Below, one piece after another: positions 13,251 through 64,000 of a DNA stretch of 64,000 nt. The stretch is from positions 39,350,305 through 39,414,304 of the forward strand of contig NC_044277.2 in assembly GCF_004027225.2 (NCBI RefSeq), written 5' to 3'. Within the stretch, counting starts at the first letter, position 1. Each line of letters starts with the position of its first letter. The notes under the pieces are model-generated. The model was not told the DNA's origin. It saw nothing but the letters and a program-made list of their open reading frames with translations, and ran no database searches. Made by a program: the position numbers and the translations under genes. The DNA is from Strigops habroptila. Lineage: Eukaryota; Chordata; Aves; Psittaciformes; Psittacidae.

Positions 13251-13664
13251 TATAGAATCATAGCATGGTTTGGGTTGGAAGAGACCTTCAAAGCTCATCT
13301 AGTCCAATCCCCTGCAGTGAGCAGGGACACATTCAACTGGATCACGTTGCCCAGAGCTACATCCAGCCTGGCCTTGGATGTCTCCAGGGATGGCACATCC
13401 ACCACCTCTCTGGGCAACCTGTGCCAGTGTTTTACCACCCTTATTGTGAAGAATTTTTTCCTCGCATCCAGCCTGAATCTTCCCTCTTTTAGTTTAAAAC
13501 CATTACCCCTTGTCATATTGCAACAGGCCCTGCTAAAAAGTCTCTCCCCATCTTTCTTATAAGTACCTTTTTAAGTACCTTTTTAAGTACTGAAAGACTG
13601 TGATAAGGTCTCCCTGGAGTCTTCTCCAGGCTGAACAACCCCAACTCTCTCAGCCTTGACATGG
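13251..13664 (-). mobile_element. CR1 LINE 3' end, 5'-truncated
   Basis: The plus strand begins with the reversed CR1 terminal repeat (atagaatcatag) followed by the typical ggtttgggttggaagagac. The element is therefore on the minus strand. The minus-strand frame still encodes the conserved C-terminal reverse-transcriptase segment with the GNGFKLKEGRFRLD and HWHRLPREVVD blocks. Truncation on the 5' side is usual for CR1. A 12-base unit (AAGTACCTTTTT) is duplicated in tandem at 13561-13584. Confidence 0.93.
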
Positions 13665-24303: not shown

Positions 24304-24420
24304 TCCCCTTTTGCTTTCTTTTACGACCACATGAAACTTGAGAAGCCATCTAAAGCTAAATCATTTAGTGGAGTTGGGCAATTCCCAAGTGTCCAACAAG
24401 AAGGCCTGGTTTAGGCTGCG
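24304..24420 (+). promoter_or_regulatory. PLAG1: PLAG1 5' UTR with in-frame upstream ORF
   Basis: The exon begins after a tttttttttccag acceptor. An upstream ATG at 24331 opens a 27-codon frame that stops at TAG 24412-24414, six bases before the PLAG1 ATG and in the same reading frame. The upstream ATG has a weak context (C at -3, A at +4), while the main ATG has G at -3 and G at +4. Leaky scanning past the upstream ATG is therefore expected, and the peptide would tune rather than block PLAG1 translation. It begins MKLEKPSKAKSF and has no known domain. Confidence 0.7.
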
Positions 24421-26523
24421 ATGGCCACTGTCATTCCTGGTGATTTGTCAGAAGTAAGAGATACCCAGAAAGTCCCTTCAGGGAAACGTAAGCGTGGTGA
24501 AACCAAACCAAGAAAAAACTTTCCTTGCCAACTGTGTGACAAGGCCTTTAACAGTGTTGAGAAATTAAAGGTTCACTCATACTCTCACACAGGAGAGAGG
24601 CCCTACAAGTGCACACAACAAGACTGCACCAAGGCCTTTGTTTCTAAGTACAAATTACTAAGGTATTAAACTCTATTTATCTTTCAGATTATATTATCTA
24701 TTTTATGTTGGCTGTGTTAAGCCGTGTAAAAGTATATATTTGTGTACGCCTTCAGCTCATTGCAGAGAGGATGTGTTAATTAAAGTAGCCATTGGATTGT
24801 TTCTAGAATTCTAAATTACCTAAGTTTGCAAGCTAATGTCTTTGATTTTGTTTCTTAATTTGTTTTCTGCTTTTGTTTTCTGTTTGTTTGCTTTTAGTTT
24901 TATTTTGTTTTTTTTAAATGAGCGTAGAATTTTCATTTGTATAAGGAATTGTCACAAGAAAAAGAGTATGGACTGAAAATTTTTTGGCTATGGACTTTTA
25001 CATGAGTACTTTCATACTTGCCTATATACCCCTGTTACAGTAGCTAAACCCCACCAAAACCTAAAAGTGTCAATTTAAGAGAAATGGCTCGCGTTTTGCT
25101 ATATTTAAATTTGTTGAACTGTCTATGTAGTGTCATGCTTTCAGTTAAAAGGTTCTGTTGCAAAGCAGCCTTTAGTGTAGTATTTAGCTGCCATTAAAAA
25201 ATGAGCACGTGTGTTTTTTGATCAAAATAATTACTTACAGAATATATCTGTGTTTAAAGGCATATGGCTACTCATTCTCCTGAGAAAACCCACAAGTGTA
25301 ATTATTGTGAGAAAATGTTTCACCGAAAAGATCACCTAAAGAATCACCTACATACACACAATCCCAACAAAGAGGCCTTTAAGTGTGAAGAATGTGGAAA
25401 GAACTACAATACCAAGCTTGGGTTCAAACGTCACCTGGCTTTGCATGCTGCAACAAGCGGTGACCTCACCTGTAAGGTATGTTTGCAGACTTTTGAAAGC
25501 ACAGGAGTGCTGCTGGAGCACCTAAAAACTCACGCAGGCAAGTCATCGGGTGGAGTGAAGGAGAAAAAACACCAGTGTGAACACTGTGATCGTCGGTTCT
25601 ACACCCGAAAGGATGTCCGTAGACACATGGTAGTGCACACTGGAAGAAAGGACTTCCTCTGTCAGTACTGTGCACAGAGATTTGGGCGGAAGGATCACCT
25701 CACGCGTCACATGAAGAAAAGTCACAACCAAGAACTTTTGAAGGTCAAAACAGAGCCAATGGACCTTCTAGATCCCTTTACCTGCAATGTTTCTGTGCCT
25801 ATTAAGGATGAGCTGCTTCCAGTGATGTCTTTACCTTCCAGTGAACTGACATCAAAGCCATTTACAAACACTTTGCAATTAAATCTCTACAACACTCAGA
25901 TTCAGTCCATGCAGAGTTCTGCATCTGCACACCAAATGGTTGCCACATCGTTACCATTGGGAATGCCTTGTCCAATAGATATGGAGTCTGTCCACCCTCC
26001 TCACCAGCTATCGTTGAAATATCCGCTCGGTACTACCTCATACGCAATTTCTATGCCTGAAAAAGAACAGCCATTGAAAGGGGAAATCGAAAGTTACTTA
26101 ATGGAGTTGCAAAGTGGTATGCCTTCTTCATCCCAGGATTCTCAAGCATCTTCATCAAAACTAGGGCTGGATCCACAAGTAGGGCCACTAGATGATGGGT
26201 CTGGGGAGGTTTCCCTTTCCAAGGGCTCCGTTCCTATTAGCGAACCTCTAAACACCCCATCATTGGACTTTTCTCAGCTGTTCAACTTCATACCTGTAAA
26301 TGGCCCTCCCTATAATCCTTCCGTTTCAGTGGGGAACCTCGGAATGAGTTATACGCAAGAGGAGGCACATTCTTCTATGACTCAACTTCCACCACAAACC
26401 CAGGATCCACAAGATCCTAGCAATAGTATAGGTCTTGGGTCTCTGCACTCGTTGTCAGCAGCTTTCACAAGCAGTCTAAGCACAACCACCACCCTACCAC
26501 GATTTCATCAAGCTTTCCAATAG
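24421..26523 (+). CDS. PLAG1: PLAG1 zinc-finger transcription factor (two coding exons)
   Basis: PLAG1 is a nuclear DNA-binding activator of growth genes such as IGF2. The coding sequence joins 24421-24662 and 25260-26523, giving 501 residues against about 500 in human. The intron (gtatta...aaag) splits codon 81 inside zinc finger 2, which restores Arg81-His82. Seven C2H2 fingers can be read: C36-H56, C64-H86, C94-H114, C123-H143, C152-H172, C187-H207 and C215-H236. A basic nuclear-localisation run KRKR sits at residues 22-25. The C-terminal half is rich in Ser, Pro and Gln, as in the family's activation region, and starts with a KTEPMD sumoylation-type motif (VKTE). The start ATG has a strong Kozak context. 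No disruption is seen; the second exon carries the stop TAG at 26521-26523. Human PLAG1 also has its coding part in its last two exons. Confidence 0.98.
24663..25259 (+). other. PLAG1: PLAG1 intron between the coding exons
   Basis: A 597-base intron with donor gtatta and acceptor tttaaag. It is A+T-rich, with a polypyrimidine/TG-rich stretch around 24.85-24.92 kb. No nested gene or repeat was recognised. Confidence 0.9.
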
Positions 26524-36400: not shown

Positions 36401-38884
36401 TGGCCAGGAAGGAAGGGGTAGTTTGTCCCCAGAAGCCCTGCTCCCCTCCGTAAATGGGTCCCTGGACCATGCTGTGGCCACCTCCTCCAGCCAATGGTAA
36501 TGCTGGAGCCAAACAGGGCTGTGCAGTGTGGGAAGGATGTCCTACAGCGGTTGTGTCTTGTGGGAGGTCACTGGGCCAGTGCCATCAATGGGTTACAGGA
36601 AAATAATGTTTATTAAAAACCTGCTTGCTTTTAAATCTGCTTTAATTGCATTCACATTGGAAGATGCTGGATGTCTCCCTGCTCCATTCCTCAGCAGTCA
36701 GCTTGAGACACGACAGTTACATTAAGGCTATTTAATCCCAAAATATGGTCCTCTTCCTGTTTAGAAATCCAATGTATTCCCCAACAGCAATTCAACATGC
36801 CTGCCACAACAGGGTCAAACCAGAAAGGTTTCTAACAGAAAAGTGTTAACAGGAAAATTGCCAAAAAAGGTACACAGCAGAGATGTCCCTCTGTTGCTTT
36901 TATATACTGTATGGCACTGATGTCCATGCAAGAATTGGAGCCCTGATAGCACTCAGAAAATAGGCATAAAATTCCCTTCTCTCTCCCCTATAGCTTTATC
37001 TGCTTACTGCAGTTTTTCATTTCCATCACAACTGACCTGCCTGGAAAACGTTCGCTGCAAAGATCGGAAGTGAAGACTAATGCGTGCAAGCATAAAATCA
37101 CAGTGCTGCTCAGAAAAGGAGCATAAAATACCTGTTGTCTTCATGGCTTACTTCACATTTAAAACTGCACTCAAGCTCCTTTGGTCGTCCTTCCACCCCC
37201 AAAGCTTCCCTGCAATGTCTGATGCCAAGTCCCTTGTGGGAGGGGCAAGGGAAGAGGAGCCTTGTGCTGTCAGGCAGTCCCATTTGCAGGGACTGTCCAC
37301 GGAGGGCCCTCTGCACTCTTGCTTGTTAACAACTCCTAGAATGCATATTAGCACCTATTTATCTAGTTCCTCCCCAGCCTGTTTCACACCGGCAGGTGAT
37401 AATCCAAATTCCCCATTCTCATTCACCTCTGGTCCAAGTTTGCTTCCCTGTGAACTGCAATGACAAATCTCTCCTGATAGCCCTAACTCTCAGCACCGGG
37501 GAAGATCTCCATCACTGGTTCACCACAGTGATGCGTTTGAAACCCTCTGGCTGAGCTGATCTAGAGTTCAGGTAGGGTCAGAAGAAGTCTTTGGGACATT
37601 ATGTCTGTTGAGGTGAGCAACCAAACCCATCTCAAGGTAGAGGACACTCCAGTTCTGATTGCACGTCCTGAGCACCCCTGAAACCTCCCTCAACTCATTC
37701 AGAGAAGCAAACCAAAGAGGAAATACCAGAAAAATGCCTGCAGAGCCAGTGCTGCCCAGAGATAAACTCTGGAGAAACAGACACCTTCAATCTTTGAAGT
37801 CCCACACCAGGATCTGTGCTGGCAAAGCTGACATCCAAAGGAAGGTTCTGAAGGGAAATGGAGACCAAGCTTTCCAAGATATTTCTCAACACAAACAGAA
37901 AGATACTTACTAAAATACCCAAAAGCTATATAGGTCCCTTATGGTGCTCTGATGCGTGTGCAGTACAGCAGGTAGCAAACACAAAGGCAGACAGCATGAA
38001 CACCGTGAATATGTGAAAGCAGGGTGAAAAGAGCAAAACCTCCTTTGAAAAACTACTGGGACCAGCAAGGTGAAATCATGCTTGCTTGATTTCTGCCACA
38101 ACAGCTCTGTGAATTTAGCAATAAGCTCACTAAGCAAGATCCAGGGATAAAATACAAACCTGTAGTAACTGCATGGGGTGCAATGGGAAGATGACGAAGT
38201 ATTTATGTATAATTCTAGCTGCTATATCTAATGGATGACACAGAGCAATCATTTGTGTTTATGCTGCTACTAAGGTTGCTGTCCTGCACAGGCAGAGCTG
38301 AGCAGCTAAACAGGAGCCCTTATCCCAGTCATGTTTAAGTGGCAGGTTTCTACAAACACGCTTCTATAGTTGGTTATGCCTGCCACAGCCTCATCAAATG
38401 CTAGCAATCACAATTTCAGCTGCTTCCTCTGGTATGACTTTGAGCTGTTTGATGTATCTGATGATGATGATCATTCCTGCCTGGAGCCCTGGTGAAATGC
38501 ACTCACCAATCCCTGCATTATTTACTCCTGGGGCATTTTTCTAGAGGCATTGAATGCACCAAACATCTTCCTTTTCTCTTGAGATTAGAAATGATGTGAA
38601 ATACACATGAGTTAATACCCTTTTAGCTTTAAATCCATTTGCCTTGACTTTCTAGAGATTTGCTTCAAGGGTAGAGAATGTTTCCAGGTGAGCCTGATTG
38701 GGTTCAGCTAGTTGTGACAGATGCAGTTCATTTGGGAGTGGGAGGGAGAATGGTGAGGGGATGATAAAAGGCTCTGAAAGCCTCTCTGGAGTCCTTTCTG
38801 CCAGGGAAACTTTTCAGTCTTCTGTTTTAACAGGCAAAAACAACTAACGACAACCTGCCTGCCTGTTGTTTTCTCCATCTTATT
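33496..38884. other. Intergenic DNA between PLAG1 and MOS
   Basis: No gene is supported over about 5.4 kb. A (TATG)n microsatellite occupies about 33585-33614. Frames of up to 127 codons near 36.1 and 37.1 kb have overlapping frames on the opposite strand and no known domain. The last few hundred bases contain the MOS promoter or 5' UTR; a pyrimidine tract plus AG (tcttctgttttaacag, ending at 38832) lies about 50 bases before the MOS ATG and could be a splice acceptor. Confidence 0.5.
33585..33614. repeat. (TATG)n microsatellite
   Basis: Six or seven GTAT/TATG units followed by a single variant unit. An ordinary simple repeat. Confidence 0.9.
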
Positions 38885-39934
38885 ATGCCATCACCCATTC
38901 CTCTTAATTGTTTTCTCCATTTTGAGTTTTCCCCATCTGCGGACTTGCGACCCTGCAGCAGCCCTTTAGTTATCCCTGGCAAAGACAGCAAGAGCTTTCT
39001 GGGGGGAGCTCCTTCGGTCAGGACCCGCCGCTTGCCTCCACGCTTGGCCTGGTGCTCCATTGACTGGGATCAGCTCTGCCTCCTGCAGCCTCTTGGCTCT
39101 GGGGGCTTCGGTTCTGTCTACAAAGCCACCTACCATGGTGCCACTGTGGCTGTGAAGCAGGTGAAGAAGAGCAGCAAAAACCGGTTGGCATCACGGCAGA
39201 GCTTCTGGGCTGAGCTGAACGTAGCCTGGCTGCAGCACAATAATGTGGTACGTGTGGTGGCTGCTAGCACGTGTGCCCCGGCCAGCCAGAACAGCCTGGG
39301 CACCATCATTATGGAGTACGTGGGCAACATCACCCTGCACCATGTAATCTATGGTACTGGTGGTGTGTGGAGACAGGGTGAGGATGATGAAGGAGGATGC
39401 GGAGGGAAGGCCCTGAGCATGGAAGAGACTGTGTGCTATTCTTGTGACATCCTGACTGGTTTAGCCTTTCTTCACGCACAGGGCATTGTGCACTTGGACC
39501 TGAAGCCTGCAAATGTCTTCATCACTGAGCAGGGAGTGTGCAAGATTGGAGACTTTGGGTGCTCCCAGAAACTGGAGGAGGGCTTGTCCCAGAGCCCCCA
39601 TGTTTGCCAGCAGGGGGGCACATACACACACCGTGCCCCTGAGCTCCTCAAGGGCGAGAGGGTCACTGCCAAAGCGGACATCTACTCGTTTGGCATCACC
39701 CTCTGGCAGATTGTCATGCGGGAGCAGCCCTACCTGGGTGAGCGGCAGCACGTGCTCTACGCTGTTGTAGCCTACAACTTGCGCCCTTCACTGGCTGCTG
39801 CTGTTTTCCACGAGTCACCAGTGGGACAGAGGCTGCAGAGCATTATCAGCTGCTGCTGGAAGGCTAATGTAGAGGAGCGCCTGAGCGCAGCCCAGCTGCT
39901 TCCCAGCCTCAGGGCCCTGGAGCAGAGCCTCTAG
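38885..39934 (+). CDS. MOS: MOS serine/threonine kinase, intact single exon
   Basis: MOS is a germ-cell MAP kinase kinase kinase that phosphorylates MEK1 and holds oocytes in metaphase II as part of cytostatic factor. The single frame encodes 349 residues, close to the 346 of human MOS. The start is supported by the family N-terminus MPSP, in which Pro2 and Ser3 control protein stability in Xenopus. The kinase parts are complete: glycine loop GSGGFG at 71-76, lysine K91 in VAVK, glutamate E110, catalytic HLDLKPAN at 203-210, DFG at 223-225, APE at 251-253, and the highly conserved [15 protein letters not shown] block. An acidic, glycine-rich insert (about 159-175) replaces a variable loop also found in mammals. 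No intron is needed, as in other vertebrate MOS genes. It lies 12 kb downstream of PLAG1 on the same strand. Confidence 0.98.
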
Positions 39935-42759: not shown

Positions 42760-44515
42760 CTATGGTCCTGGAGAGGAGAGAGCCCCAGGATACCTGGTTG
42801 ATAGTCAAGGATTGCCGTCTAAAAGCTCAAGATGGGTCCATCCCAATGAGCAGGAAATCAAGCAAAGGTGACAGAATGCTTCCAAGGATAAACAAGGAGC
42901 TCCTGATTAAACTCAAACATAACAAATAAATGGGCAAGGGTTGAGAGATCAGTGAGAAGTCCGGAGCAAGAAAGACTGTTGGTAGAGAGGATCAGGTTAG
43001 GGAACATTCAAACAAATGAGACATATGTTCATGGGACCTGATGGGATGCACTCACAAATGCTGACAGAGCTTGCTGATGTCATTGTGAGGCCACTATTGA
43101 TGATCTTTGGAAGATCATGGTGGTCAGGAGAGATTCCTGAGGGTTGGAAGAAAGCAAATCTAACTTCCATCTGCAAGGTGGCCAGAACAGAGGATCTAGA
43201 AAACTTCATCCCATGGAATGTGGTGGAACAATCCTGGAAACCATTGCCAAACATACCCATGACAAAAAGGTGATTGGGAGTAGTCAGTGTGGATTTATGA
43301 AGAGGAAGTCATGCTTGACCAACATGGTAGCCTTCTGTGATGAGATTGCTGGTTGCTGGATGAGGGGAGAGCAGTGGCTTTTGCTTATCTTGACCTTAGT
43401 GAGGCTTTTGGCACTATTTCCCATTACATCCTTGTAGATAAACTGATGAAGTACAGGCTAGATAGTGAAAACTGAGAACTAGCTGAGCTGCTGGACTCAG
43501 AGGGTTCTGGTCAGTGGTATGAAGTCCAGCAGGAGACCAGTCACTAGTGGTGTACCCAGAGATCGCTACTGGGCCCAGCACAGGTTAATGTCTCTATTAA
43601 TGGTCTGGATGGTGGGACAGAGCACACCCTGAGGAAGTTCACAGATAGTACAGAATTGGCTGGCGTGGTCAGTACCTCAGATGGTTGTGCTGGTGTTCTG
43701 AGAGACCTTACCAAACTGGATAAATCTGCTGATGGGAATCAATGCAGGGAGCTGCAAAGCCTCGCACCCGATGGAGTGCCAGGTAACCCCATGCATCAGC
43801 TCAGGCTGGGCGCAGATCGGCTGGAAAGCAGCTTGGCAGGAAAGGACCGGGAGCTCCTGGCAGACACCAAGTCGAACATGAGCCAGCAATGCGCCCTTGC
43901 GGCAAAGGTGGCCAACAGCACCCCGGGGTGTGCTGCGCGGGGTGTTGCCAGCGTTGCTCCGGCAGGTCTGAGTTCCCCTCTGCTCACTCAGACCTGGTGG
44001 GACGCATCTGGAGTGCTGTGGCCAGCTTGGGATTCTGCCGGGACAAGAAAGTCATGGATGTACCGCGCCAGGAGTGTGAAGGGCCATTAAGCTGATTATG
44101 GGATGGAAACCTCTGCATGTGAGAGAGGCAAAGAGATGGGACTGTTCAGCCTGGAAAGAGAAAGCTCCAGGGGATCTTACCAGTTTGTATAAATACTTTT
44201 GGGAGACAGTAAATATGGAGCCAGTCTCTGCTCAGTGGTGCCCAGTGACAGAACAAGATGCTATGGAGACAAACTGAGAGACAAGAAATTCCATTTAAAT
44301 GCAAGAGAAAAACATTTTTACTCTGAGGATGGTCAAACACTGGAATAGGTTGCCCAGAGAGATTGGAGTATCTTCATCCTTGGAGATATTCAGAACCCAA
44401 CTGGACACAGTACTGAGCAAGCTGCTCTAGTTGACCCTACTCTGAACAGGAGGTTGGACTAGACAATCTCCACAGGTCCCTTCCAACCACAAAAGTTCTG
44501 CAAATATAATAACAT
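42760..44515 (+). mobile_element. CR1 LINE, 1.75 kb, decayed ORF2
   Basis: The plus strand encodes, in three successive frames, pieces of the CR1 reverse transcriptase. The block GPDGMHSQMLTELADVIVRP begins at about 43038 and is followed by a WKKANLTSICK segment. A shifted frame then reads KKVIGSSQCGFMKRKSCLTN. A third frame runs over about 43656-44090. The tail 'ggttggactagacaatctcc' near 44452 and the 'cccttccaacc' block near 44478 mark the 3' end. It is 5'-truncated, with frameshifts and stops, so it cannot be active. The left boundary is approximate. Confidence 0.88.
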
Positions 44516-55180: not shown

Positions 55181-56564
55181 ACATATAGGAACAAGAAATA
55201 AATACGGAAATTCTACTTCAATTACACAGCTTAAATGTATGGAAAACAGATATTTTCAGATTGACTTTTTTTCCTCATGCAGTTACAGCATATATTTGAT
55301 AGACAATAGGAATAGTGTTGATAAAACACATCTGCACATCAACTTGTTCAGTAGGATACAAACTGACACTGTTAGGCACCTATAGACTTATCTACCATAG
55401 TCAGTAAATTAAAACTAAGATTACAGGTCTGTGTCATCAATGAGGACTCAAACATATTTCTAATTGAATCCCACAGGAATTAGTTCCTGGCAGCAAGCTA
55501 CTCAGTATTTTATCCGGAAATAAAGTTTACTAAGAACTTTCATAAAAGCTCTACGTAAACAATGTAGCAAGACTGCCAATTGGGAACCATCTGGATTAGT
55601 GGAAAATTAAGTGTTTCAGCATGATCGGTGTGACGTCACGTATTTAAGAGCGATGAATATAAAACACTTATGGATGGAAAACTTCCTCAGGAATAGCAGA
55701 TAACAGAGTAAACACGGGTTCCTTATGCATAAGCAAGTTCAAAATTGTTAATAATTGTTAAATGGCTCAGAAAACAAACCACCAGAACCAAACATTGCTT
55801 TTGCTGCAGGGAGGAAGAGGCCAGAGAAACAGGACTATCATCAGAACACATTCTTGAAGTACTGATCTCCATCAGCAAAAGACATGGCTGCATTTCAGGA
55901 AGCAGCAACAGGATGACAACTTCTGTATCCATGTTTATTGGAACTGCTTTATCAGAACATAGCATCTAGTCCAAACAAGTTATTAGTAAACCAGATATTT
56001 CAAAGAGCAAGTACAAATGAGCCAAGTGCAAAACAAGCCTAAAATTGCGCATCAAAATGGAATAATTGGTATAAAAAAAAGTTAACTGCATCACATGAGG
56101 CTTAAGGACCATATGAAGACCTATAATGCATTTTGTAGGGAAAAAAAAAATAAAATTAAGTGCAGTGTGATAGCTGAAAGTAAGTTCCTATTAAACACCG
56201 AGCAGGCTTTTCTGAGTAACTGTAGTAATTAGTAAGTTTCCAAAAGGCGGCAGTAGTTTTGCTAACATTACACATGTCCATCATTACTGGACAAACCCCC
56301 AAACTAGAATCAAAACATTATTTTTAAAAGATAACGACAGTGACCTTACCATACACCATCATTTCATAACATGTAACATCTGTTTCTCCTGTTCAATAAA
56401 CCTGTTAAGTACTGATGTAACTAGGAACAGGCATGCTCTCAGCAAAACACTGGTTTGGGTCTGACAGTTACCAGTGCCCAGGCCAAATCAATGACTGTTT
56501 TCGTTAAAAAACATCTCTTCAATGCCTAATCTGAATAAATAAAAGGGACTTCAATAAACAGGGG
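55181..56564. other. Intergenic DNA upstream of RPS20
   Basis: A+T-rich sequence with no supported gene. One perfect CRE-type palindrome TGACGTCA at 55631-55638 is followed directly by a TATTTAAG element, described under findings. The remainder may include more of the old CR1. Confidence 0.45.
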
Positions 56565-56822
56565 CAATGGCTTCAAGCCGACAGAGGGCAGATTTAGGTT
56601 AGATATTAGGAAGAAATTCTCCCCTGTGAGGGTGCTGAGGCGCTGGCACAGGTCACCCAGAGAAGCTGTGGCTGCCCCATTCCTGGCAGTGTTCAAGGCC
56701 AGGTTGGACGGGGCTTTGAGTAACCTGGTCTAGTGGAAGGTATCCCTGCCCGTGGCAGAGGGGTTGGAACAAGATGATCGTTAAGGTCCCTTCCTGCCGA
56801 AACCATTTTGTGATTCTATGAA
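56565..56822 (+). mobile_element. CR1 LINE 3' end fragment
   Basis: The plus strand runs through the CR1 3' landmarks in order: 'ggttagatattaggaagaaa', 'ttcctggcagtgttcaaggc', 'caggttggacggggctttga' and the terminal 'tgattctatga'. It is therefore on the plus strand and includes the true 3' end. It is only about 260 bp long and sits about 130 bp from the RPS20 CpG island. Confidence 0.93.
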
Positions 56823-57507: not shown

Positions 57508-60101
<2,594 letters not shown>

Positions 60102-60123: not shown

Positions 60124-61299
60124 GTTGATTTACAAATTTTCATCGCTGTTTGTTTTCATGTGCATGCCAACAGTCTTGGGTAGCCTCATGATGATTTTGA
60201 TGAAGAACAACAACAGATCATAATGAAAATGCTGTGTGAGAGGCTGACACGATACTTAAGGAATAATGTGCCAGTTGGAAACATAAGGAAGATGAAACTT
60301 GGGCATCATTCTCTCTACGCAGAGAAAAAACCCTGTGTCTTCCTGAAGGCCAGTTTCTGTTCATATAACTATGAGCTGCCTGACAAACGCTTCTATGCTT
60401 GGTTTTCAACTTGCTTGTATTTTTATGGGGTGCTCTGAAAAGCCTGGGAAGAACCTGACTTTGTGACTCCAGGCAGATTAAGAAGGGATAAACTGGCAAA
60501 CAACAGACTAGAAGTGTTACTTCTAGTAACCTCTAGCTGAGGCTGGCTGACCTTTGTGTATAAGCTGTTGACTTTCACCCAAGTAGTCCCTCTGCTTAAC
60601 CCAGTGGCCTGACTGAAAGCACTTGAAGGGATCTGAGGAGGGCTGGCTGGCTGGCTTTAATACACTTTCTGTCTTTGGTCTTTGCTGTTGGTCAAAACCT
60701 GTTGCTATGAAATAGGGTTTTGTTGGCTTACAGCTGGCTGTATTACACAGTGCTCCTTAAACATACCCAATGACCTGAAGTCCCATCTATGTTTTTGAGC
60801 AGCTGTGGGTCTTTCAAAAACAAGTTTTCCTTAGTATTATGAGTATCTTTTCATCTGCCTCCAAATTGCTTATGAAAACATACAACTTTACCTTTATGTC
60901 TGAGTCTTGTGCTATGCAGATATAAAACTCCCTACTCCCTGAATAGATAGGCTCATACGTGAAGACTGTACACTCTTTACTGGAACAGCAGGCCATTTGC
61001 TAGTTGAAGGTAACGGGACCCTCCCCACTGCCATAGTAAACCCTTTGCTTGACCTGCCCCAGTTCTGCCTTTGTGTAACCTGAGCGTTTTGTGATTTGTT
61101 TTGCACTTAAGCTTACAACAATACCGGGTGGTGTCGAAGCGGTTACATAACTCTTTTGATGGAAATATTTATGTATCAGTGTCTTCCTCCACGGCACACG
61201 CTCGGTCAGGCGAGACGCTGCTCCTCTGACAGCTAAGCTACCGCTGCTGGCGCTGCCTTACTTCGTTCAAACCATTGTGGTTTTTGTTTTTTCAAGCCC
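60124..61299. other. Spacer between RPS20 and the kinesin-like gene
   Basis: About 1.2 kb with no supported gene. A short (GGCT)n stretch lies near 60642-60656. Composition changes to CpG-rich near 61.19 kb, where the next promoter begins. Confidence 0.6.
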
Positions 61300-61860
61300 A
61301 GTGTCTTAATACAAACGTATGTATAAACCCTGCGCCAGGAGCACACGCTGCAGGGCCCGTGTCCCGTCCCGTCCCCCGTCACCCCCCTGCCCGCGCCGGT
61401 GCCGGCGGCTCGGCGGCTGCCTTACGCTGTGCGGCGGCGCCCCCTGCCGGGCATTTTGAGTTGTGTGCTTGCACGGGCCTGTCCGTCACCGCTGCTCCGC
61501 CCCGCCCCCTCCCTTCCGGCCAATCAGCGCCTGCCCTCCGCCGCTCAAACGCTCCCGCCGCCGGGGTTCGCGGCTTCCCGCGCGCGGCAAGGTAGCGGCT
61601 GTGGGCGCTGTGCGCGCGGGTCGCGCCTTGAGGCTTCGTGCCCTCGGCTCGGCTCGGCTCGGCTCGGCGCTGAGCCCAGCCCGGGTACCGCTCCCGTTCC
61701 GCCGCTGGGGCAGGCGGGCGGCCGGCGATGCCCCGCTCGGTTCCCCTCGGTTGTCCCTTTCCTGCGTGTAAACGCTTCCCGCTCTGAGCCGGTCATTGAG
61801 GCAGGGCACGGTGGCCCCGGGGCTGAGCCGCTGATGCCTGGGGGGTGTTGAGCCTTTCAG
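61300..61860 (+). promoter_or_regulatory. CpG island promoter of the kinesin-like gene
   Basis: A dense CpG stretch with a CCAAT box in CCAATCAG at 61520-61527, GC boxes at about 61500-61515, and an E2F-like TTCCCGCG at 61575-61582. A possible first-exon donor is the caag|gtagcg at 61591/61592. A CCAAT box with E2F-type sites is common in cell-cycle genes, which fits a mitotic kinesin. A (CTCGG)5 repeat lies at 61643-61667. Direction is assigned from the coding exons downstream; the start site is unknown. Confidence 0.6.
61643..61667. repeat. (CTCGG)5 pentanucleotide repeat
   Basis: Five perfect CTCGG units inside the CpG island of the kinesin-like gene, just downstream of its putative first exon. 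Confidence 0.9.
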
Positions 61861-62125
61861 GGGTGAGGGTTACAGGCTGTGGTGTAGCACTTTCAGGTGG
61901 ATGAGGGTGATGCCCACCTGAGGCTGTCAGTATGCTTTCACTTGCGTGTTTCGTTGTCAGTCGATTTTTAAGGTTCCACCATACTCCCAAACTTACTTCA
62001 GAAGTGCTTGTTCATGTACAAGCCACCCTGATCTCTACTTTGCTCCCTGAGTGGTTTTGCCTGTTCTGTGAGAAAATGATGTTCGTTTTGGTCTGTCTTC
62101 TTTTCAAGTTCCTTTGCACAGAACA

Positions 62126-63494
62126 ATGGATAATGAAGGGAAAAGCAATGTTTCTGCAGAAGCACCCAATACGCTGGAATCAGTTTCTTTTCTCGGTGTA
62201 TCGGGTAATCCTTCGCCTACGGAATCAACCGTATTGCCTAATACAGAGGAACTGCAGGTGTGGGTTGGTTTTGTACCAGGTCTTCTGATTATGGGGTTTT
62301 TAAGCTTTAATTGAGGCAAATACTTCTTTGGTGAGAACTGCTGTATTCCCCCATCCCCAGGATGTGTTTGGTTCTTCCGCTTGGTTCTCACTGCTACAAA
62401 TTGTTGCCAGTACCAAATGCAGATGGTCAACGCTATGTGATGTGTCATGCTAAGCTTTTGAGAAGGAAGTAAAGGAATTCGGTAACTGCACTTTGAATGT
62501 AACATGACTGTACTGTTCCTTTTAGTAAGCTAAACAAGCATATAGATCCTTGTTGAAAGCTTGTTAGGTGCTTGGAAATAAAGATCTGTAATGCTGTGCT
62601 GCAGTATGCTTCTGAAGATTGTATTGTCATGTCTGCCTTTCTAGATCTGTAGGTTTGCTGATTGACTTACTTCCCTCAGGTGACTTAATTTTGTATGATT
62701 AGCAGAGTGCTGCTTGTGGGAGGGATGTGAGAACTCTGATCAATCCATCTGCTGAATGAACAAGTTGTCAAAGTAGGGATATGGAAGCTCTGCAAGAAAG
62801 GAAGGAATGCTGGGATCCCTCTAGAAATCTCCCTGCTATTATTGCTTGACCTGGATGGAGAGACCTCTGTGTAATGATATGGGATGGAAAAGCCCACCTT
62901 AGCAACTGAGAACTCTTTCATGGTTATTACTGTGAGGAAGATAAGGGGCTAGTGCCTGGAAAACAGTAATTAAGCTGTCTCTGGAGGCTAAGAATATATC
63001 AGTCTGTTAAATGAACATGCACCATACAAAATGGAAGTGCAATACTTTAAAGCAGCTATTAGAAAATACAGCTTGAATTCAATACAGAGTGACACCAGAA
63101 GGTGGAAGCAGTGCAATTTATGTCTCTGTTAGCGTGCTCTTTTAAAACAAAGATACTGGCTTTGTCCGAAAAGAACATTAAAGGGGGTAGGAGAGGTTAC
63201 TTAAGGACATCAGGAATTTAAGAAACAAATGAAAGCTTAGGGTCTGAACTTCACAAGGAAGGAGAAGGTGAGGCAGTAAGATAAAACAGGAAATATGCAT
63301 TAGAGATGTATGCTGATATGATTTGGGGGATATTATGTTTAAAAAGTGGTCATTATAACTGTGGTTTGTTTGTTGCCTTGTGTTTGGTTTTGTTTGTTTA
63401 TTTTTTTTTTAATGAATAGGCATACCAACCTTTGAAAGTCTTCTTGAGAGTGAGGCCCTTTTCTGTAGCAGAGCTTGAAAACCATGAACCTCAG
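62126..63494 (+). CDS. Kinesin-6-like protein (KIF20A-related), 5' part only
   Basis: Two exons encode the first 69 residues of a kinesin: 62126-62257 (44 codons, preceded by the acceptor cttcttttcaag and ending ctgcag|gtgtgg) and 63420-63494 (25 codons, ending cctcag|gttagt). Both junctions are phase 0 and both splice sites are good. The ATG has A at -3 and G at +4. The first 44 residues are acidic and Ser-rich with no domain. Exon 2 then reads LKVFLRVRPFSVAELENHEP, which is the first beta-strand of a motor domain. Compared with remembered human sequences it matches KIF20A (KVYLRVRPLLPSELERQEDQ) at about 12 of 20 positions, better than KIF20B. ATP-binding P-loop exons must lie beyond the right edge. 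Kinesin-6 motors act at the central spindle in anaphase and cytokinesis. True KIF20A is on human 5q31, so this may be a separate paralogue. Confidence 0.75.
62258..63419 (+). other. First coding intron of the kinesin-like gene
   Basis: A 1.16 kb intron between the two coding exons, with donor gtgtgg and acceptor tgaatag preceded by a long T tract. No repeat or nested gene was recognised. Confidence 0.7.
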
Positions 63495-64000
63495 GTTAGT
63501 TGTAGAATTAAGAAATAAGTTTTCCTTCTCCCCCAAAGTATACTCCACCTAGTATTGTAAGCTGGGACTTTCTTTTATGGAAGTAGTGGACACCTGGGTA
63601 AATGTAATGTAGCTCTGCAAAGTTCCACTGGGTACTTTATTTAAAAGTTGGTATCACTCCTGCCTCTGTGCAGTGCTCAAGAAATGAGTTTCATGGAAGA
63701 GATTATGCAGTTCCAGGAGCAGTTCGGGCGTCTGACCCTTGAGTTTCCTTGGAATGCTTGAACAGTCTACTACCTCATTCCAGTGACTTGCTGCTCATCC
63801 TGTGAAGTTTTTTTTTTTTTATATAACCTCTACAGTTTATATTGTCCGATTCAGATGCTTCAGTGTTTTACACACATACATGTACACATGCAAACACACA
63901 GAATTACTCCTCCTTCCTACGCACTGCCACAGTGCTTCCAGTTTGGCATCATTCAGCAATCCGAGCTGCTTGTAAGGGTAAATTGATTTACAAAATCAAA
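63495..64000 (+). other. Next intron of the kinesin-like gene, to window end
   Basis: The donor gttagt at 63495 starts an intron that reaches the edge of the window. I see no further kinesin-coding exon. A short frame at 63783-63986 is low-complexity, with a CACA-rich tract. Confidence 0.6.

Follow-up and report, generated by a model that had tools for sequence, protein, structure and literature searches.

The right end of the window analyzed here, a 64,000-nucleotide stretch of the Strigops habroptila genome (C1:39350305-39414304), very probably contains the beginning of an intact kinesin-6 gene that is apparently single-copy, encodes an 831-residue motor and forms a third KIF20 branch, separated before the split of birds and mammals. 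The initial annotation had described two phase-0 spliced exons encoding a kinesin leader and the first motor strand, belonging to a KIF20A-like gene downstream of RPS20. Both exons are present with their splice sites, an intact gene could be assembled around them, and RPS20 lies upstream on the same strand.

Coding exon 1 (62126-62257, forward strand) opens with an ATG, encodes a 44-residue leader in its translation and ends in phase 0 at a CAG/GTGTGG donor. An AG acceptor at 62120-62121, immediately 5' of this exon, suggests an untranslated first exon further to the left. Coding exon 2 (63420-63494, forward strand), also in phase 0, is preceded by an AG acceptor and followed by CAG/GTTAGT, and it encodes AYQPLKVFLRVRPFSVAELENHEPQ, containing the first motor strand KVFLRVRPF. 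Compared with the corresponding strand of mouse KIF20A, exon 2 scores 63, against 25 for the next-best site across all six frames of the window and at most 40 in 100 first-order Markov windows. The 69 residues of the two joined exons matched no Pfam family and gave six PDB matches at E-values up to 10, all of them kinesins: the top three (0.14-0.2) were other kinesins, and three KIF20A constructs came next (1.3-1.6). Exon 2 alone gave five PDB matches (0.23-0.30), with three KIF20A and two KIF19 constructs level. By themselves, the two exons are weak in database terms and do not single out KIF20A; we consider them genuine because the rest of the gene, outside the window, completes a kinesin (Pfam, 1.5e-93; PDB KIF20A, 3e-146). 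KIF19 was considered as the family and rejected, as exon 2 scores 60 for it versus 63 for KIF20A and the full motor reaches 5.5e-41 versus at most 1.1e-144 in PDB. Inspection by eye of the three forward frames of 63495-64000 revealed no exon 3, which starts to the right of the window at C1:39416112.

Using a kinesin-domain search of the same genome (1,148,577,936 bases in 89 contigs; 129 matches), we located motor exons on the contig and strand of the window, beyond its right end, and we examined 80 kb of the contig, the overlapping part of which is identical to the window. The final gene model, a prediction from genomic DNA, consists of 18 coding exons at C1:39412430-39434123, includes both exons above and stays open to a stop codon. 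It extends about 20 kb beyond the window, with coding exons 3-18 at C1:39416112-39434123. Most motor exons and exon 13 were located by tblastn with human KIF20A and KIF20B and exons 6 and 12 by a splice and frame search, while exons 14-18 were placed by open frame, splice sites and phase only. All 17 acceptors are AG and 16 of the 17 donors are GT; the sole exception, at the end of coding exon 13, is a GC donor (gag/gcaagt, C1:39427632). Downstream, the last coding exon of LYN ends at C1:39437607 on the minus strand, placing the kinesin gene and LYN tail-to-tail.

The assembled protein has a complete kinesin motor domain. The whole Pfam Kinesin profile (1-327 of 327) is matched at residues 54-480, and among the best 60 of 154 PDB matches, three KIF20A constructs lead at 3e-146 to 1.1e-144, followed by the next best at 4.9e-53. 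The nucleotide-binding motifs GVTNAGKT, SSRSH and DLAGSE are intact at residues 144, 348 and 380. The motor resembles KIF20A and KIF20B more than it does other kinesins and groups with them, apart from KIF23, at 100/100. Like KIF20A (MKLP2), which has been described to have a long N-terminal extension and neck in the part of PMC10508983 available to us, the protein has a long extension, with 49 residues preceding the first motor strand KVFLRV, and a loop-6 insertion aligned with that of KIF20A, the region consisting of 106 residues from GILPRSL to ASVWISF; the motor can be aligned with that of KIF20A over its full length, and the overall size of the protein is also similar. The tail, 352 residues long, can be aligned with the tails of KIF20A (26% over 308 residues) and KIF20B (24% over 295); the E-values, obtained by searching two sequences with no correction for composition, are overstated for coiled coils. 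A C-terminal motif shared with KIF20A is weak, its score being reached by 13 of 1,000 shuffles. The tail of human KIF20B (MPP1), in contrast, is well over 1,000 residues long.

A pseudogene or retrocopy could look similar within the window, where only 69 codons are readable, and the gene is known here from DNA alone. Extending the sequence to the right and assembling the full motor, as the initial annotation had suggested, recovered both the P-loop and the switch motifs, however, and the 831 open codons, the intact motor motifs and the intron phases shared with related genes make this explanation very improbable. Intron phases equal those of KIF20A at 11 of 11 compared junctions (exons 2-12) and those of KIF20B at the nine exons located, an agreement that is partly by construction because KIF20A guided the choice of exon ends. 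The shared phases fit a duplication at the DNA level and argue against a retrocopy. In the parts of PMC12193209 available to us, the probable chicken counterpart, KIF20AL, is found in full-length transcripts of testis, again unlike a dead copy.

We then consider whether the gene is KIF20A itself, moved to this location in birds. Its best PDB match is KIF20A, and the chicken annotation name is KIF20A-like. Nevertheless, when the S. habroptila genome was searched with the motor of human KIF20A, 20 of the 37 matches fell in three loci: a KIF20A locus at C12:16617912-16621580 (seven matches, 63-85% identical), the window gene at C1:39416109-39425619 (seven, 46-73%) and a KIF20B locus at C5:64201220-64209561 (six, 42-64%). 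The remaining 17 matches were 29-63% identical, the highest being 38 residues of the KIF23 locus at C9:1187127-1193068. Contig C14 had been a candidate for the KIF20A locus; the search pointed to C12 instead. The motor encoded at C12 is identical to human KIF20A at 75.2% of 448 positions, compared with 53.8% of 431 for the window gene, and the two KIF20A sequences pair at 100/99 in the phylogeny, remaining together at 97.5/97 and 96.2/94 when the S. habroptila KIF23 is added. In chicken, the portion of PMC1876622 available to us places KIF20A on chromosome 13, tabled beside CDC23 and EGR1. The second locus refutes the plain relocation raised as one possibility by the initial annotation, and we assign it practically no probability; the window gene is not the KIF20A ortholog. 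Neither is it the KIF20B ortholog, as the C5 gene pairs with human KIF20B at 100/100.

The preferred reading, a separate KIF20 gene, is consistent with the levels of motor identity. The window gene is identical to the S. habroptila KIF20A and KIF20B at 52.5% of 434 and 52.9% of 401 positions, respectively, and to human KIF20B at 47.6% of 424, whereas the S. habroptila and human KIF20B are identical at 67.3% of 401. KIF23 (MKLP1), also a kinesin-6, is more distant, with 36.6% of 404 positions identical in the human motor and its own separate locus in S. habroptila. The P-loop GVTNAGKT differs from both human KIF20A (GVTNSGKT) and S. habroptila KIF20A (GITNSGKT), while this motif and FGPETTQ are common to the window gene and the S. 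habroptila KIF20B. No second copy of the window gene was found among the 45 matches of the assembled protein in the genome, the closest match outside its own locus being 71% identical over 57 residues of KIF20A. Other kinesin motors at C13:15608881-15609858 and C6:62745405-62746382 each lie in one open frame, of 534 and 614 residues; being intronless in the motor and matching the whole Pfam profile, they are possibly retrogenes.

We inferred phylogenetic trees from two species, S. habroptila and human, with the human sequences entered by hand. The S. habroptila KIF20B sequence starts within exon 2 and is without the loop-6 exon, and the S. habroptila KIF23 was reconstructed along the human query from tblastn segments with an identity of 45% or more, covering 408 of 414 residues. 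In a six-sequence tree with human KIF23 as the sole outgroup, the window gene was placed outside KIF20A and KIF20B at 88.5/80. With the S. habroptila KIF23 added, it was placed beside KIF20B, essentially unsupported at 13.8/42 (470 columns) or 28.7/44 (391 columns). Three placements, outside the two, next to the KIF20A clade or next to the KIF20B clade, were at most 0.82 log units apart and all accepted, so the branching order of the window gene, KIF20A and KIF20B may be any of these. The kinesin-6 tree proposed in the initial annotation thus does not force the gene to nest within the KIF20A clade, and a sister position to that whole clade is one of the three accepted placements.

Joining the window gene with the S. 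habroptila KIF20A alone or KIF20B alone, on the other hand, costs 40.4-66.8 log-likelihood units across two alignments. The AU test rejected a duplication confined to birds both for KIF20A (p = 1.08e-5 and 3.49e-5 in the two alignments), contradicting the duplicated KIF20A also considered in the initial annotation, and for KIF20B (p = 3.07e-5 and 7e-46). With these rejected, the split is older than the divergence of birds and human. If KIF20A or KIF20B had duplicated within birds or reptiles and the copy had then evolved fast, it might still be pushed outward in a tree, and in a two-species tree the branch is unbroken by other vertebrates; yet the AU test rejects both bird-specific origins, and the branch of the window gene (0.33-0.46) is of ordinary length when compared with those of KIF20A and KIF20B. 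We regard such a duplicate as unlikely.

The separate KIF20A, KIF20B and KIF23 loci and the rejection of bird-only duplications instead support the view that the window gene represents a third lineage of the KIF20 family, one that predates the divergence of birds and mammals and that human apparently lacks, in agreement with the third KIF20-type gene envisaged in the initial annotation. The apparent absence in human is based on the list of three kinesin-6 members in the part of PMC11729872 available to us. Going further back, it is likely, though less firmly so, that the gene is a third vertebrate KIF20 paralog that branched away no later than the early vertebrate genome duplications, stayed intact in birds and was lost in mammals. 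Human 8q11-12 is presumably part of a different set of duplicated vertebrate regions from those carrying KIF20A and KIF20B, and an even older split would be in keeping with this.

The gene has already been named in chicken. In the gene lists of PMC12193209, as far as the paper was available to us, KIF20AL is among the NCBI genes of a 2-Mb stretch of chicken chromosome 2 (109,473,923-111,473,923), together with CHCHD7, LYN, MOS, PENK, PLAG1 and RPS20, the order not being given. The window gene is most likely the ortholog of KIF20AL, a likeness drawn from name and neighborhood rather than sequence, and one for which the paper offers gene lists only. The same source reports up-regulation of KIF20AL in the testis of large-testis birds, based on full-length transcript data. 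Our literature search found words beginning with KIF20AL in three papers, PMC12193209 being one of them, and, among the matches listed, no study of the gene's origin or function, and the text of PMC6609395 contained no KIF20; in the literature searched, the gene is neither placed nor studied. Where papers on birds name KIF20A as a proliferation gene, they do not, in the parts available to us, specify which locus was measured.

Upstream of coding exon 1, a CpG island at 61201-61800 is a candidate promoter of the kinesin gene on the forward strand; measurements starting at 61201-61601 gave a GC content of 0.59-0.77 and a CpG observed/expected ratio of 0.96-1.10. A pattern scan identified a CCAAT box at 61520 and an E2F-like TTCCCGC at 61575, and together with a CpG island these would fit a cell-cycle gene. 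One CHR-type TTYRAA site, at 61266, lies about 250 bases to the left of the CCAAT box, a spacing that is not as expected. No divergent gene was evident opposite the island when the other strand was viewed as open frames.

The upstream neighbor, with four coding exons at 57508-60101 on the forward strand, is by its translation presumably RPS20, a name also supported by a U54 C/D box snoRNA in its intron (59260-59324, forward strand; Rfam RF01277, 58 bits); an Rfam scan of the window gave no further match at gathering score. Further left on the same strand are open frames that presumably encode the MOS kinase (38831-39934) and PLAG1-type zinc fingers (24415-24669 and 25258-26523). Broken frames and a 3' end at 43001-43437 (forward), 13295-13570 (reverse) and 56560-56820 resemble CR1-type LINEs.

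The kinesin-6 family supplies the motors that assemble the central spindle and the midbody. By analogy with KIF20A and KIF20B, the encoded protein may work at these structures in dividing cells, with its tail predicted to form a coiled-coil dimer and its motor, like those of its relatives, probably moving toward microtubule plus ends. One table in the available part of PMC12193209 hints at a possible testis bias. The gene would have been lost on the way to human. If this is true, birds have a fourth kinesin-6 motor, perhaps serving the division of the very large egg or of male germ cells, and studies of how chicken cells divide may involve a motor without a mammalian counterpart. The time of the loss, and the identity of the remaining motor that inherited its work, would also become testable.
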